NCBI RefSeq assembly: GCF_025370875.1
Contig: NZ_JAMXFD010000008.1
Span: forward strand, 62,001-126,000
Length of the DNA: 64,000 nucleotides
Direction of reading: 5' to 3'
Origin: Laspinema palackyanum D2c
GTDB lineage: Bacteria; Cyanobacteriota; Cyanobacteriia; Cyanobacteriales; Laspinemataceae
A program made the translations under genes and the position numbers. Shown here piece after piece: positions 25,734 to 49,923 of this stretch (its first letter is position 1; every line of letters starts with the position of its first letter). The notes below the pieces were generated by a model. The model saw only the letters and a list, made by a program, of their open reading frames with translations, was not told the origin of the DNA and made no database searches.

Positions 25734-26906
25734 CTACCCAGAGACAAGCGTAGTAGTAGATTTCTTTCGTCCTCTATTACTACGTCTTACTGTCTGGCGA
25801 TAGGCTTTATCCCCGGTTCCCGAGGTCAATATTCGTAGACCCTCATCTCTGAGGTTGATTGCTGCATTGACATCCCGATCATGTTTCGACCCACAGTTGG
25901 TACAAGTCCAATGTCTTATGTCCAGGGGTAGACTCCCAACTTGGTTTTTGCAGACATGACAAGTTTTTGAACTCGGGAAAAACCTATCAACCTCTTGATA
26001 AACCTTGCCCTCTTGTTCAGCCTTGTACTTGAGCATGGTACAAAATTGACCCCAGCCTACCTGACTTATAGCCTTGGATAGACTGCGGTTTTTTACCATG
26101 TTCTTGACTGCTAGATCTTCAACCACAATCACTTGGTTTTCGTTAACTATCCTACGCGATAGCTTGTGATGAAAATCTTCTCGACATCGGGATATCTTAT
26201 GGTGAACTCTAGCTACTTTCTTTCTAGCCTTATGGCGGTTATTTGAGCCTTGGGGCTTACGAGAAAGTTGTTGTTGTTTGCACTTTAAGTTTCGTTCGTA
26301 TTTATCTAGCCATCTAGGGTTGTCAAATTTTGAACCATCAGAGGTGATAGCAAAATGAGTTAACCCGAGGTCTATACCTACTGCTTTGCCTTCAGCATTA
26401 GATTCAGACTTTTCTTTACCATCCTCAAATAACACTGAAGCAAAGTATTGGTCACCACGGTTTTTGGAGACAGTAACAGTCTTTACTTTCCCATTTATAG
26501 GACGGTGAATAATTGCGTTTACTTCTCCAATAGATGGGAGATTCAATGAACCATCCAACACCTTAACATTCTGAGGGTACTGGATAGATTGTTTTCCATG
26601 CTTCGACTTAAAGCTAGGATAACCCGCTCTCCTTTCAAAGAAATTGTTGAAGGCTACACCCAGATTGAGGCAGACTTGCTGTAGGCATTGGGAGTAGGTT
26701 AGCTTCAACCATTCATACTCTTTTTTGAGTGAGGGTATTTGCTTTTTAACCTCATACCCAGACAATCCTTTACCTGTCTCCTTATAGGTTTTATTCATCA
26801 AGTCAAGACAGTAGTTCCACAGAAAACGGCAATTGCCAAAGGACTGCTCTAGCAACTGCTTCTGTTCTCTATTGGGATATAGTCTTACCTTGACGACCTT
26901 TAACAT
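25734..26906 (-). CDS. tnpB: TnpB, RNA-guided endonuclease of an IS605-type element
   Basis: TnpB is the ancestor-like relative of Cas12, cutting DNA next to the transposon end under guidance of an RNA made from its own 3' end. The 390-residue protein is complete. The RuvC acids are visible: D179 in AVGIDLGLTHFAIT, E263 in VVVEDLAVKNM and D345 in HDRDVNAAINL. The zinc finger is CHVCKNQ ... CTNCGS (about 318-340). The N-terminal helix-turn-helix (VKVRLYPNREQKQLLEQSFG) is intact. The stop codon overlaps the start of the putative omega-RNA hairpin. All key residues are present, so it may be active. Confidence 0.9.
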   Translation of the reverse strand: MLKVVKVRLYPNREQKQLLEQSFGNCRFLWNYCLDLMNKTYKETGKGLSGYEVKKQIPSLKKEYEWLKLTYSQCLQQVCLNLGVAFNNFFERRAGYPSFKSKHGKQSIQYPQNVKVLDGSLNLPSIGEVNAIIHRPINGKVKTVTVSKNRGDQYFASVLFEDGKEKSESNAEGKAVGIDLGLTHFAITSDGSKFDNPRWLDKYERNLKCKQQQLSRKPQGSNNRHKARKKVARVHHKISRCREDFHHKLSRRIVNENQVIVVEDLAVKNMVKNRSLSKAISQVGWGQFCTMLKYKAEQEGKVYQEVDRFFPSSKTCHVCKNQVGSLPLDIRHWTCTNCGSKHDRDVNAAINLRDEGLRILTSGTGDKAYRQTVRRSNRGRKKSTTTLVSG

Positions 26907-27027: not shown

Positions 27028-27390
27028 TCAAAACGGAAAAATCACCCGGAGGAATTCTCTGACGGGTAAGCGATTAATCATGATCTGCCCGGGAGGGATG
27101 GGCCCGATCGCCGTGGTTGGACTGCCATCGTAGGGGGCGATCGTCGCTTGAAATGCCGGATCTTCGAGCAATGTGGCATATTCAGCCGGGCTCAGCGGTG
27201 TTCCATCAACGGGCGATCGGCCTTGGGTAATAATTTCAGTTCGCAAAATTTCCTCGGGAACATCCGAGGCAGGAGGTAAAGCGGTCGCCAGTGGGGTGAT
27301 CCCCAGCAGGATTCCCCCGACTAAAATCAACTGAATTAAAGGGGTGTGACCCGAGAGTTTAGGACCGATAGGTTGGTGGCGATCGCGCAT
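27028..27390 (-). CDS. Small exported protein of unknown function
   Basis: A 120-residue protein. The N-terminal PLIQLILVGGILLGITPLATA (about 17-37) is a signal peptide or single membrane anchor ending near ALPPASD. The mature part has VDGTPLSPAEYATLLEDP, PPGQIMINRLPVREFLRVIF and a terminal FPF. I recall this pattern (LSPAEYA..L, INRLPVRE, terminal FPF) from conserved cyanobacterial hypothetical proteins. No function is known to me. It lies between the TnpB element and the RNase III fusion gene, on the same strand as both. Confidence 0.65.
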   Translation of the reverse strand: MRDRHQPIGPKLSGHTPLIQLILVGGILLGITPLATALPPASDVPEEILRTEIITQGRSPVDGTPLSPAEYATLLEDPAFQATIAPYDGSPTTAIGPIPPGQIMINRLPVREFLRVIFPF

Positions 27391-27607: not shown

Positions 27608-28768
27608 CTATAATGCGCCAACCTGTTTTAAGGCTAACTCAGCCGCCCGTTTTTCCGCTTCTTTTTTACTCCGTCCTTTACCCACTCCATACACTTGATT
27701 TCCCACCTTCACCTCCACGGTAAAATCTGGTGCATGATCCGGTCCCGATTGGGCGATCGTTTCATATTTGGGTTGAGTCGGACCGAGATTTCCTTGGACC
27801 CATTCCTGAAAGCGATTTTTGGCATCTAAAAGAATACTAGATTCAGCGGTCAACTTGCGATCTAGAAGACCTTCCGCTGCCGATTCAAATAAAGGTTCGA
27901 CAAAATTGCGGACCGCATCAATCCCAGAGTCCAAGAAATATGCCCCGATAATCGCTTCAAAGGTATCACTCAACAACGAATCATTTTTGCGAGCTTTATC
28001 TTTAATTGCACCTTTCCCCAACTTCATGTTTTTACCCACCTCTAAATAATTGGCAAAATCAGCCAGTTGAGTTTCATCCACTAAAGCCGATCGCAATCGA
28101 GTCAATTGGGATTCATTCAAATCCGGATAAAGCCGGTAAATAAAATGGGTACTTAAAAAATTGAGAACCGAATCGCCTAAAAACTCCAGGGTTTCATTAT
28201 TCTGACCCACCTCGGGATGTTCATTGGCATAAGACCGATGAATTAAAGCCAAATTCAGCAAAGCAGGGTCGCGAAAAGCAGGCAACCTGGGGATATCATC
28301 CAAACTTTCGATAATATGAGATTCATCAGCCACCTCCAGAAGGTCAGGACTAAATCCCCCCCGTTGGACAAAAACAATGACCTTCTTTTTCCGGCTTTTT
28401 AAAACCTGACCTAAACTCGTCAACTCTCCATTCCCCGATACAATAATAAAAATATCAGCCGAATCAGGTTCCACCGCATAATTGACGGAATCGACAATTA
28501 ACTTGTGGTCTACACTATTTCTGTCACCGGAAGGAACATCAACCCGATTAAACCCCAGTTCCGTTAAATATTCGGTATGATTGGGACTTTCATGTTGCCA
28601 ATTAGAGTAAGCATGACACAGCGCCAAATCTCCCTGGGTTGCGGAAAACTCTACTAAAAAATCGGCTCGTTCTGGACTAATTTTGACATTTTGACAATCC
28701 CAATAGAGCGCGACTCGCTTAGAGTTGGTATTGGTTGTTGATTTTGACAATTGGTTGTTAGAAGGCAT
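27608..28768 (-). CDS. NYN-RNase III-dsRBD fusion nuclease
   Basis: A 386-residue protein joining two nucleases. Residues about 15-145 are a NYN/PIN-like domain (ALYWDCQNV, SVDHKLIVDSVNYA, then VSGNGELTSLG). About 150-300 is RNase III with NETLEFLGDSVL and SDTFEAIIGAYFLDSG, so both metal-binding pairs are present. The end (KYETIAQSGPDHAPDF ... GKGRSKKEAEKRAAELAL) is a double-stranded RNA-binding domain. In the NYN part the usual SGDGDF reads SGNGEL, so one acid is lost and one is Glu. I chose ATG 28768 over TTG 28810. Ordinary bacterial RNase III lacks the NYN part. It should cleave structured RNA in the cytosol. Confidence 0.9.
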   Translation of the reverse strand: MPSNNQLSKSTTNTNSKRVALYWDCQNVKISPERADFLVEFSATQGDLALCHAYSNWQHESPNHTEYLTELGFNRVDVPSGDRNSVDHKLIVDSVNYAVEPDSADIFIIVSGNGELTSLGQVLKSRKKKVIVFVQRGGFSPDLLEVADESHIIESLDDIPRLPAFRDPALLNLALIHRSYANEHPEVGQNNETLEFLGDSVLNFLSTHFIYRLYPDLNESQLTRLRSALVDETQLADFANYLEVGKNMKLGKGAIKDKARKNDSLLSDTFEAIIGAYFLDSGIDAVRNFVEPLFESAAEGLLDRKLTAESSILLDAKNRFQEWVQGNLGPTQPKYETIAQSGPDHAPDFTVEVKVGNQVYGVGKGRSKKEAEKRAAELALKQVGAL

Positions 28769-29397: not shown

Positions 29398-30249
29398 ATG
29401 ACCCTCCTCTCTAATTTGATTCACCAGTTAGGCAAGCCCTATTTTCAGACTGATCAATGCTTAATTTATCATAGAGACTGCTTAGAAGGGTTTGCGTTGC
29501 TTCCTGACCAAAGCATTCATCTAACCCTAACCAGTCCACCTTATAATATTGGGAAAGAATATGAAAAGCAACTTCCCCTAGATAAATATTTGGACTGGTG
29601 TGAACAGTGGATTGCTGAAATTTACCGGATTGCTTATCCCAGTGGGTCATTTTGGCTCAACTTAGGCTATCTGTCCATCCGAGATCGAGCCAAAGCGATT
29701 CCTATTCCCTATTTACTATGGAATAGAGTCCCCTTTTATCTTATCCAGGAAATTATTTGGCACTATGGCGCGGGAGTAGCCGGAAGCAAGTTTTTTTCTC
29801 CCCGTAATGAAAAGTTTCTCTGGTACGTTAAGAACCCCGAAAATTATACGTTTAATCTTGATGAAGTTAGGGACCCTAATGTGAAATATCCGAATCAAAA
29901 AAAGAATGGTAAGATAAAAGTCAACTTAAAAGGAAAAAATCCGACCGATGTTTGGGATTTTCCCAAAGTCACCTCGGGAAAAAATCGGTCATCAAAAGAA
30001 CGCACCTCTCATCCGGCTCAATTCCCCATTGCGGTTATTGAAAGAATTATTAAGGCATCATCTAACCCCAACGAAATCATTTTAGATCCCTTCATGGGTT
30101 CAGGAACTACCGGACTTGTTGCTTTGGATTTAGGGCGTCCAGTTATTGGATTTGAGATGCGGGAAGATTACTGCGAAATAGCCGCTAACAGAATTGAAGA
30201 TTTTCTCCGTAAAAAAGCAGAATGTAATGCTCAATTATCTTTATTTTAA
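29398..30249 (+). CDS. DNA methyltransferase of ScaI-type system (probably N4-cytosine)
   Basis: A 283-residue beta-class enzyme. The catalytic motif IV comes first (TSPPYNIG, S46-P-P-Y49), and the AdoMet-binding motif I comes last (DPFMGSGTTGLVALDLG from D230, then VIGFEMREDYCEIA). SPPY rather than DPPY favours N4-cytosine methylation. Its stop is 17 bp from the convergent stop of a ScaI-type endonuclease, so the two form a restriction-modification pair. ScaI recognises AGTACT and its partner makes N4-methylcytosine, which fits. ATG 29398 lies in an AT-rich leader. The pair is AT-richer than its surroundings, as in transferred modules. Confidence 0.9.
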   Translation: MTLLSNLIHQLGKPYFQTDQCLIYHRDCLEGFALLPDQSIHLTLTSPPYNIGKEYEKQLPLDKYLDWCEQWIAEIYRIAYPSGSFWLNLGYLSIRDRAKAIPIPYLLWNRVPFYLIQEIIWHYGAGVAGSKFFSPRNEKFLWYVKNPENYTFNLDEVRDPNVKYPNQKKNGKIKVNLKGKNPTDVWDFPKVTSGKNRSSKERTSHPAQFPIAVIERIIKASSNPNEIILDPFMGSGTTGLVALDLGRPVIGFEMREDYCEIAANRIEDFLRKKAECNAQLSLF

Positions 30250-30266
30250 TTGTAGAAATAACTAAA

Positions 30267-30878
30267 TTATAAGGGTAATGTTAAGAGTTTATATCGTTCA
30301 ACATCAGGACTTAATTTGGCTTGCTGACCCGTGGCTGCCGCTTGTCCTTTCCAATCGTCCCCATCTATCCATCCAAAACGGACTAATGTAATTTGAGGTT
30401 TTTGGATTTGGGTAATATTTTTGTCGAACTTTTGAAAGTTAATGACTAAATAATATCCTGATTTATCTTTTTTCTTTACAGTTCGGCCCGTTGTGCTAGT
30501 CTGTGCGTAACTTCGATTCCCGTAAGTGCTGCGAGCGCTTGAAGATGTTTTGATTTCAATGGAAAATCGAGGAGCGGGAATATAGACTAAATCCTTCTCT
30601 CCATCATTTTGTTCACGACGCCAAAAATTAGGGTAGCGACGACTAAATTCTAAAGGAATCAATTCATGTAAAAAGTAGCCCATTATCTGGGGACGTGGAA
30701 AAAAATCAACTCCAATCCTATATCCTCCACTGGTGATGTTTGATTCAAATATTTCCGCCCATACTTTGAGGACAACTTCATAAATTTCCGGCGAATTGAT
30801 GGGATGTTGTTCTATCAATTCTTTCGTCTTGTTTTCCCAAGCGCTGATCGGAAGTTCATGATACGGGGAAGTATTCAT
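30267..30878 (-). CDS. ScaI-family restriction endonuclease
   Basis: A 203-residue protein. The PD-(D/E)XK core is EKDLVYIPAPRFSIEIKTSS with D96, E108 and K110. Other features I associate with the ScaI family are FFPRPQIMGYFLHELIPLE, GNRSYAQTST, KSGYYLVINFQKF, VRFGWIDGDDWKGQ and TGQQAKL. It should cut unmodified double-stranded DNA, probably at AGTACT. Its start overlaps the stop of the controller gene upstream by 4 bases (ATGA), so translation is coupled, the standard arrangement for delayed endonuclease expression. All catalytic residues are present. Confidence 0.88.
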   Translation of the reverse strand: MNTSPYHELPISAWENKTKELIEQHPINSPEIYEVVLKVWAEIFESNITSGGYRIGVDFFPRPQIMGYFLHELIPLEFSRRYPNFWRREQNDGEKDLVYIPAPRFSIEIKTSSSARSTYGNRSYAQTSTTGRTVKKKDKSGYYLVINFQKFDKNITQIQKPQITLVRFGWIDGDDWKGQAAATGQQAKLSPDVERYKLLTLPL

Positions 30879-39215: not shown

Positions 39216-39289
39216 GGCGAACGACCGGGATTGAACCGGCGAATGGTGGAATCACAATCCACTGCCTTAACCACTTGGCTACGCCCGCC
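39216..39289 (-). tRNA. tRNA-His(GTG)
   Basis: On the minus strand the gene reads GGCGGGCGTAGCCAAGTGG ... GGATTGTGATTCC ... GGTTCAATCC ... CGTTCGCC. The acceptor stem GCGGGCG pairs with CGTTCGC (two G-U pairs), the extra 5' G opposes C73 as in all tRNA-His, the anticodon is GTG, and the T loop is GGTTCAATCC. No CCA is encoded. Length is 74 bases including G-1. Confidence 0.95.
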
Positions 39290-49401: not shown

Positions 49402-49911
49402 CTAATAATCGATTTTTTCTATGTGGTCGCGAATATCATTCAAGTCAATATAGCGATCGGTGGCATTTCTCAACTCTCGGGCAATCATTCCTTCGGTTGA
49501 AACGACGGTGATATGAGTATTTTTAGACCGTAAGAGTTCGATCGCCCGCTCGAAATCTCCATCCCCACTAAATAGCACCACTCGGTCATACTGTTCTACG
49601 GTATTAAACATATCGACGACAATTTCGATGTCTAAATTAGCTTTTTGAGAATAGCGCCCCGAGGTGTCGTCATAATATTCTTTGAGAATTTTGGTGCGAA
49701 CCGTATATCCCAAACTAATCAGGGCATCTCTAAAACCTCGTTGGTCCTGCGGATCTTTGAGTCCGGTGTACCAAAAGGCATTAATTAACATAATCCCAGG
49801 CTGCTCTTGGGTAAAATATTCTAGCACCCTTCTGGGATCGAAAAACCAACCATTCTTTTGTTGAGCGTAGAACATATTGTTCCCGTCTACAAAAATAGAC
49901 AGACGGTTCAT
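49402..49911 (-). CDS. LabA/DUF88-type NYN domain protein
   Basis: A protein of about 169 residues made of one NYN (PIN-like) domain. The acids are canonical: SIFVDGNNMFYAQ, KANLDIEIVVDMFN and VVLFSGDGDFERAI. LabA in Synechococcus damps expression of clock-controlled genes, and the domain is thought to be an RNase. ATG 49911 gives the usual start MNRLSIFVDG. ATG 49923 would add four residues. It is monocistronic, with a 950-bp gene-free region upstream. In contrast to the NYN domain fused to RNase III at 27.6 kb, the catalytic pattern is intact. Confidence 0.88.
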   Translation of the reverse strand: MNRLSIFVDGNNMFYAQQKNGWFFDPRRVLEYFTQEQPGIMLINAFWYTGLKDPQDQRGFRDALISLGYTVRTKILKEYYDDTSGRYSQKANLDIEIVVDMFNTVEQYDRVVLFSGDGDFERAIELLRSKNTHITVVSTEGMIARELRNATDRYIDLNDIRDHIEKIDY

Positions 49912-49923
49912 TAAAAAACCCAT

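Follow-up and report, generated by a model that had tools for sequence, protein, structure and literature searches.

The window analysed here, a 64,000-nucleotide stretch of the genome of the cyanobacterium Laspinema palackyanum D2c, carries a gene in which a NYN nuclease domain, an RNase III catalytic domain and a double-stranded RNA-binding domain (dsRBD) are joined in a single open frame of 386 amino acids from its ATG (27608..28768, minus strand). Judged by gene order in related genomes, this fusion belongs to a wider pattern of pairing, since many relatives have a separate NYN gene immediately 5' of an RNase III gene. The protein has about an even chance of being an accessory two-nuclease RNase III, derived from a joined gene pair, that would both cut and clear duplex RNA. 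The fusion, its inheritance, the gene pairing and the state of both active sites are read from sequence comparison, and the fusion, which is confined to a small set of filamentous cyanobacteria among the matches listed, points together with the pairing to a two-enzyme RNA-processing unit.

Architecture and setting of the fusion gene

The NYN domain, which is of the LK-nuclease/MARF1 type, occupies residues 17-152 (28313..28720, minus strand; Pfam, AF2 model and Foldseek) and matches PF01936 at E 9.3e-20, with 72 bits against a cut-off of 24.2. It is followed by a linker of about 13 residues without methionine (residues 153-165; 28274..28312, minus strand, from the Pfam domain limits), by the RNase III catalytic domain (residues 166-290; 27899..28273, minus strand), identified by Pfam and NCBIfam, and by a C-terminal dsRBD (residues 315-381; 27626..27826, minus strand; Pfam dsrm, PF00035, E 7.3e-21). 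Within the RNase III half, Pfam Ribonucleas_3_3 matches residues 166-290 (E 1.3e-30) and Ribonuclease_3 matches residues 191-281 (E 1.6e-21), and the protein scores 224.2 bits against the NCBIfam RNase III equivalog TIGR02191, for which the cut-off is 166.25. The Pfam curated cut-offs are exceeded by the NYN, RNase III and dsRBD domains. No HEPN match was found in the fusion protein by Pfam at E<=0.01, and its NYN matches PF01936 and not the YacP-type family PF05991. Methionine codons occur in the frame only at positions 1 and 248, and therefore a free RNase III cannot be made from an internal ATG; the start ATG is common to the other Laspinema-group copies. An earlier sequence-only reading of this DNA had described the same three-domain frame without assigning its strand, and the Pfam and NCBIfam matches confirm it.

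The RNase III half contains E192, E195, D199, D268 and E271, which we take to be the catalytic set. The NYN motifs, re-read from the sequence and found to be as the sequence-only reading had described them, are WDCQN (D24), NSVDHKLIVD (D87, D93) and SGNGEL (N113, E115). D24, D87 and D93 are retained, and with N113 and E115 replacing aspartate the window protein does not possess a complete acidic NYN active site.

An AF2 model of the NYN domain has a pLDDT of 86.7 and a pTM of 0.85, and its best solved matches in Foldseek are VPA0982 (2qip, 1.4e-8) and the NYN of MARF1 (5.8e-7; 6fdl, 5yaa), with TMq values of 0.79 to 2qip and 0.79-0.83 to MARF1. The fold is thus of the MARF1 type, although a sequence search of the PDB with the NYN alone returned nothing at E<=1. 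VPA0982 is the structure named for the LK-nuclease in the relevant passages of PMC2848206. Solved RNase III structures are matched by the full-length model (pLDDT 81.7); the pTM of that model is 0.48, and therefore the NYN cannot be placed reliably relative to RNase III.

In the genus, the seven loci besides that of the window include six in which the fusion adjoins a DUF255 gene and one (L075) with too little flanking sequence, and no DUF255 neighbour occurs in the loci of the two more distant carriers described below, G393 and Symplocastrum. In the window, a DNA methylase (PF01555) and a ScaI-type restriction endonuclease (PF09569) lie at 29398-30878 by Pfam. These genes were matched in none of nine related stretches searched; a link between the fusion and this restriction-modification (R-M) pair was rejected for that reason, and the pair was probably inserted, in this strain specifically, between the DUF255 gene and the fusion. 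On the downstream side, an IS605 OrfB/TnpB-type gene with a Cas12f1-like TNB domain (25734-26906, minus strand) lies close to the fusion, and just downstream is a 120-aa frame (27028-27390, minus strand) that has no Pfam match at E<=0.01 and is present in one of the nine related stretches (L073, 92.5%). Scans for promoters (four found, 4.6 expected) and terminators (three found, 1.9 expected) gave no useful signal, and the one Rfam match between 20000 and 40000 is a tRNA (39216-39288).

Inheritance of the fusion and its relation to separate gene pairs

A search of 59 related genomes recovered the full-length fusion in all eight genomes of the window's genus (the Laspinema group), in which the other seven copies are 86-93% identical to that of the window, and in one genome of another genus of the same family (G393, 57% identity); among the matches listed it is absent at full length from five other members of the family. 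A scan of named genomes found the fusion in Symplocastrum torsivum (56% identity over query residues 5-366) and in six Laspinema-group records (Laspinema palackyanum D2a, L. olomoucense D3b, Laspinema sp. D2d, Oscillatoria sp. HE19RPO, Phormidium pseudopriestleyi FRX01 and an Oscillatoria MAG), most of which are the same sequences as the genus genomes of the 59-genome search. The ten fused proteins compared here are those of the eight genus strains, G393 and Symplocastrum. Among the matches listed for 386 genomes of the phylum there was no further full-length match, and the cyanobacteria-wide search for the architecture that the sequence-only reading had proposed thus places it, among the matches listed, in the genus, G393 and Symplocastrum. 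The idea that the frame is a standard cyanobacterial RNase III was rejected on this distribution and because the genome encodes three further members of the RNase III family. A mobile-element gene was likewise rejected, since none of 62 matching plasmid records and none of 12 matching phage records covers 80% of the fusion protein.

An assembly or sequencing error that fused two genes might be suspected, as NYN and RNase III are separate neighbouring genes in relatives, but the same joined frame recurs in G393, in Symplocastrum and in seven other strains of the genus, nine further genomes in all; the probability of such an error is very small, and this explanation was rejected.

In many cyanobacteria without the fusion, a separate NYN frame often ends shortly upstream of RNase III on the same strand, with 33-396 nt between the NYN end and the candidate RNase III start methionine in the subset of pairs measured. 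The genomes in all of the following counts are related, and the cases are not independent. The less selected of the RNase III counts comprises 63 matches at E<=1e-40 in 59 genomes, with rows assigned by hand; 26 of these RNase IIIs are linked to a NYN (nine fused, 15 with an upstream NYN, and two with an upstream NYN before a HEPN-RNase III), three are HEPN-fused only, and 34 have neither partner, which means that RNase III needs no partner. Among 104 distinct RNase IIIs from fetched loci that were partly score-selected, 10 are NYN-fused, 19 have an upstream NYN (in L029 a partial 115-aa frame), two are HEPN-RNase IIIs that also follow a NYN gene, HEPN fusion by itself accounts for 13, and 60 have neither.

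The association was also counted from the NYN side. Pfam identified 78 NYN matches in 19 genomes, eight of which are from one genus and therefore not independent, and at least 19 of the matches are linked to RNase III (nine fused, ten adjacent); chance adjacency is expected at well below one, by a rough estimate from about four NYN and about four RNase III-family genes per genome of several thousand. A profile built from 17 linked NYNs, which favours the linked subfamily, was run against 120 genomes of the order and gave 31 matches at E<=1e-22, spread over 25 genomes. Thirty of these were inspected, and 25 proved to be linked (three fused, 22 upstream) and five not, the linked count including L164, with a gap of about 0.9 kb, and L153 and L154, which contain the HEPN start of a HEPN-RNase III that L086 and L087 show at full length. 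Fifteen of the genomes were outside the profile, and a linked match is present in 11 of them and in none of the other four (G407, G413, G451, G455); ten of the 15 have NYN genes new to the analysis, which are linked in eight, though some share a genus with profile genomes. The linked cases cover nine family codes (f1, f6, f7, f15, f17, f43, f46, f54, f58).

Several of the separate NYN genes have additional features. An approximately 80-residue C-terminal repeat, conserved with the consensus FPNYQGVxSIxKPDG, is present in one or three copies on upstream NYN frames (for example L008:544-1368, L085:1756-3291); it has no Pfam name and no match by sequence in the PDB. In L085 (G397:C77:11000-18500), L086 and L087, a HEPN-RNase III and a NYN with three such repeats adjoin on one strand, and L085 bears a further RNase III, which brings both partner types into one cluster. 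A LOTUS/OST-HTH identity for the repeats was considered and dropped, as neither Pfam (14 members) nor a PDB profile search supported it; matches to the WH_eIF2D winged helix were weak and non-significant (three of 14 members, best 0.044).

The relationship among these NYNs was examined with a quick, unrooted tree of 52 domains, drawn from 70 frames after removal of duplicates and two partial domains, in which some long branches meet. A branch with an SH-aLRT of 96 separates all 29 linked NYN rows, and three unlinked ones with them, from the remaining 20 rows. Those 20 are all unlinked and include the stand-alone LabA-like genes of the same genomes; the RNase III matches of the 59-genome search are either on different contigs from them or far away. 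By this placement the linked NYNs form a subfamily of their own that is associated with RNase III. The ten fused NYNs cluster with one another (support 98) and sit apart from the stand-alone LabA-like NYNs, in a tree without any named LabA sequence; LabA is a clock output protein. The window itself has a stand-alone LabA-like NYN gene (49402-49923, minus strand; PF01936, 5.8e-34) that is nearly identical in the other genomes of the tree.

A quick tree of RNase III domains groups nine of the fused domains and places that of Symplocastrum elsewhere. For AU tests the set was cut from 102 rows to 89 by dropping 13 that were long or remote; a single clade of all ten fused RNase IIIs was not rejected (p 0.50), and grouping the 19 upstream-NYN RNase IIIs into one clade was strongly rejected. 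Two independent fusions are not claimed, given the AU result and the position of the Symplocastrum NYN with the other fused NYNs. The simplest reading of the trees is that the fusion would have arisen by the joining of a NYN|rnc gene pair, and that this probably happened once. Rejection of a single clade for the upstream-NYN RNase IIIs implies that the association itself has been gained, lost or exchanged repeatedly.

The genome of this strain has four RNase III-family genes: the fusion, one at C1:61.6k, one of dsRBD length at C2:41.7k, and a Mini-III-sized short gene (C22:8.4k, a 179-aa frame). The second RNase III of the genome (L002) has a separate NYN gene upstream on the same strand, and a YacP-type NYN gene is located separately at C3:237560, on a different contig from the short RNase III. 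Cyanobacteria usually have one to three RNase III genes besides Mini-III, and the action of the extra ones is described in parts of PMC10989914 as largely unclear; the recurrent NYN is a likely co-worker for some of them.

State of the NYN active site and readings of function

Alignment of the NYN acids, which the sequence-only reading had suggested, showed that, among the ten fused proteins, SGNGEL is confined to this strain. Seven of the ten retain SGDGDF (five of the eight genus strains and both outside relatives), and the remaining two strains of the genus have SGDGNF with CQT for CQN (L077) and SGKGDF with GQT (L078). Every one of the ten fused NYNs has D24, D87 and D93, and the five RNase III acids are intact in all ten, in agreement with the complete RNase III signatures noted earlier for this protein. 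No frameshift, stop or large NYN deletion was found in the ten copies. That earlier reading had also proposed that SGNGEL might mark conversion of the NYN into a binding domain: the altered site stands for the window protein, but the proposal does not extend to the family.

Pooled over all pairs of the eight strains, which are not independent, the Nei-Gojobori dN/dS is 0.28 for the NYN and 0.07 for RNase III and dsRBD. Taken with the altered sites, these values indicate that the NYN is under selection group-wide, less tightly than RNase III, and is probably damaged in three strains; a roughly fourfold higher ratio and an altered active site in three of eight strains would also fit a domain on its way out.

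Eukaryotic NYNs serve as a comparison. According to PMC6294520, the MARF1 NYN has an acidic patch (D358, D426, D427, D452) and cuts single-stranded RNA, and mutation of D426/D427 removes most of its activity. From motif order, these residues would correspond to D24, D87, H88 and N113 of the fusion. Loss of catalytic residues need not end function, as NYN-1 and NYN-2 of Caenorhabditis elegans are described in sections of a preprint (PMC12265681) as being without them and still redundantly needed for RNAi.

The position equivalent to D268, presumably a metal-site residue, varies among the RNase IIIs compared (loci such as L002, L008, L020, L034 and L086). All ten NYN-fused proteins have Asp there, 17 of the 19 that follow a separate NYN gene have Ser, and 12 of the 15 HEPN-fused proteins have Asn; 58 partnerless RNase IIIs have 38 Asp and 18 Ser. 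The change may follow partner type or may simply follow clade. With Ser in 17 of the 19 NYN-adjacent RNase IIIs, the pair and the fusion need not work alike.

The mechanism proposed for the accessory two-nuclease RNase III is as follows. The protein is predicted to dimerize through RNase III, and the RNase III half would cut double-stranded RNA. The tethered NYN would cut or hold single-stranded flanks or products of the same RNA, so that duplex RNA could be both cut and cleared in one step. The NYN site of this strain and two others of the genus has lost at least one conserved residue, and for that reason the NYN of those three strains is probably mainly an RNA-holding or RNA-shaping part, with cutting left to RNase III. 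In the cell the protein probably serves to control duplex RNA of antisense or foreign origin, and not to mature rRNA.

Other readings are less probable. It is conceivable, if rather unlikely, that in Laspinema the NYN half is a decaying passenger from the ancestral pair and that the protein acts as a plain extra RNase III. The SGNGEL, SGDGNF/CQT and SGKGDF/GQT motifs and the difference in dN/dS are consistent with such decay, as is the observation that the three strains with an altered fused NYN (G000, G387, G392) all keep a second NYN|rnc pair, compared with two of the five with an intact one (G386, G388, G389, G390, G391), a comparison of too few strains in which G386 and G391 are 92 and 87% complete. 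Decay is opposed by a NYN dN/dS still well below 1, by retention of SGDGDF in five of eight strains and both outside relatives, and by the uninterrupted frame of all ten copies. Ordinary maturation of stable RNA (rRNA, tRNA), in the manner of YacP/Rae1-type NYN and Mini-III, is improbable. Maturation of 23S rRNA is a task of Mini-III, and in Synechococcus 7002 an RNase III acts in the maturation of both tRNA and rRNA (PMC10989914, in part); YacP is possibly involved in rRNA maturation, as a passage of PMC3814617 has it, but the genome already has the dsRBD-length RNase III on C2, the Mini-III-size enzyme on C22 and a YacP-type NYN, and most related RNase IIIs have no NYN.

A two-headed RNase directed against foreign duplex transcripts, with an anti-phage or anti-plasmid role, is also unlikely. 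Cyanobacterial HEPN-RNase III-dsRBD proteins have been discussed under RNA-based defence (PMC3710099, in the section concerned) and HEPN fusions recur on related RNase IIIs, and in Synechococcus 7002, which has two RNase IIIs, disrupting one (A2542) causes a large rise in the copy number of a plasmid (PMC10989914, in part). A defence gene fits less well with the DUF255 neighbour in six of the seven other genus loci, though this neighbour is not shared by the two outside relatives, with the unmatched ScaI-like R-M genes, with the lack of plasmid or phage records covering the protein, and with PADLOC, in which the fusion protein gives only a weak LabA-like NYN match (20.7 bits).

The accessory two-nuclease RNase III could itself belong to something broader, a modular duplex-RNA silencing unit of cyanobacteria in which an accessory RNase III works with a second RNase, neighbouring or fused, which is either HEPN or a NYN of the linked subfamily, the latter often bearing additional C-terminal repeats; this suggestion is tentative and its truth doubtful. 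RNase III would open duplex transcripts and the partner would destroy or hold the single-stranded parts, and partner modules would have been swapped repeatedly, with catalytically dead NYNs kept as scaffolds. If true, the unit would be a bacterial working analogue of Dicer and a NYN nuclease.

Comparison with known systems

The RNase III-linked NYN genes presumably belong to the same Pfam family as the LK-nuclease (formerly DUF88). For bacterial LK-nuclease genes with OST-HTH domains, passages of PMC2848206 report no conserved neighbourhood link to known RNA-processing systems; the present results touch on that statement in that NYN genes adjoin RNase III in nine family codes, with an OST-HTH identity of the repeats not supported. 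MARF1/Limkain b1 and VPA0982 share with the fusion the Pfam NYN domain and its PIN-like fold. In MARF1, however, the NYN is paired with RRM and LOTUS domains and not with RNase III (PMC6294520, in part), and the fusion has N113 where an acid equivalent to D452 would be expected from motif order.

Bacterial RNase III (TIGR02191; Thermotoga maritima 1o0w) resembles the fusion in its complete RNase III and dsRBD with all catalytic acids. The fusion differs in its extra N-terminal NYN and in being one of four RNase III-family genes in its genome; the earlier statement that ordinary bacterial RNase III has no NYN holds. Bacillus YacP/Rae1 and Mini-III, the genes for which are close together, likewise bring a NYN nuclease and an RNase III-type enzyme into one RNA-processing context, but YacP belongs to PF05991 and Mini-III has no dsRBD. 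In C. elegans, RDE-8, NYN-1 and NYN-2 act after Dicer, so that here too a single silencing pathway employs both an RNase III and a NYN nuclease; this system is eukaryotic, made of separate proteins and Argonaute-guided (PMC12265681, preprint, in part), and no homology of the systems is claimed.

Among the closest known systems are also the HEPN-RNase III proteins, which account for 15 of the 104 distinct RNase IIIs; one is Pfam-confirmed (HEPN_Swt1, 1.9e-36, in L006) and the others were identified by an in-house profile. HEPN is a fold unrelated to NYN. The HEPN-RNase III-dsRBD proteins of cyanobacteria are published as 'two-headed RNases' (PMC3710099), and like the fusion they have a second RNase domain N-terminal to a cyanobacterial RNase III-dsRBD; unlike the fusion, that domain is a Swt1-like HEPN, and the NYN version is not named in the relevant part of that paper. 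No report of a NYN-RNase III fusion or pairing was found in the open-access literature; Anantharaman and Aravind 2006, on NYN domains, lies outside that scope and may mention such links. With the HEPN form published and the NYN form unreported in that literature, the fusion is therefore classed as a variant of the two-headed RNase, a two-nuclease RNase III with NYN in the place of HEPN.
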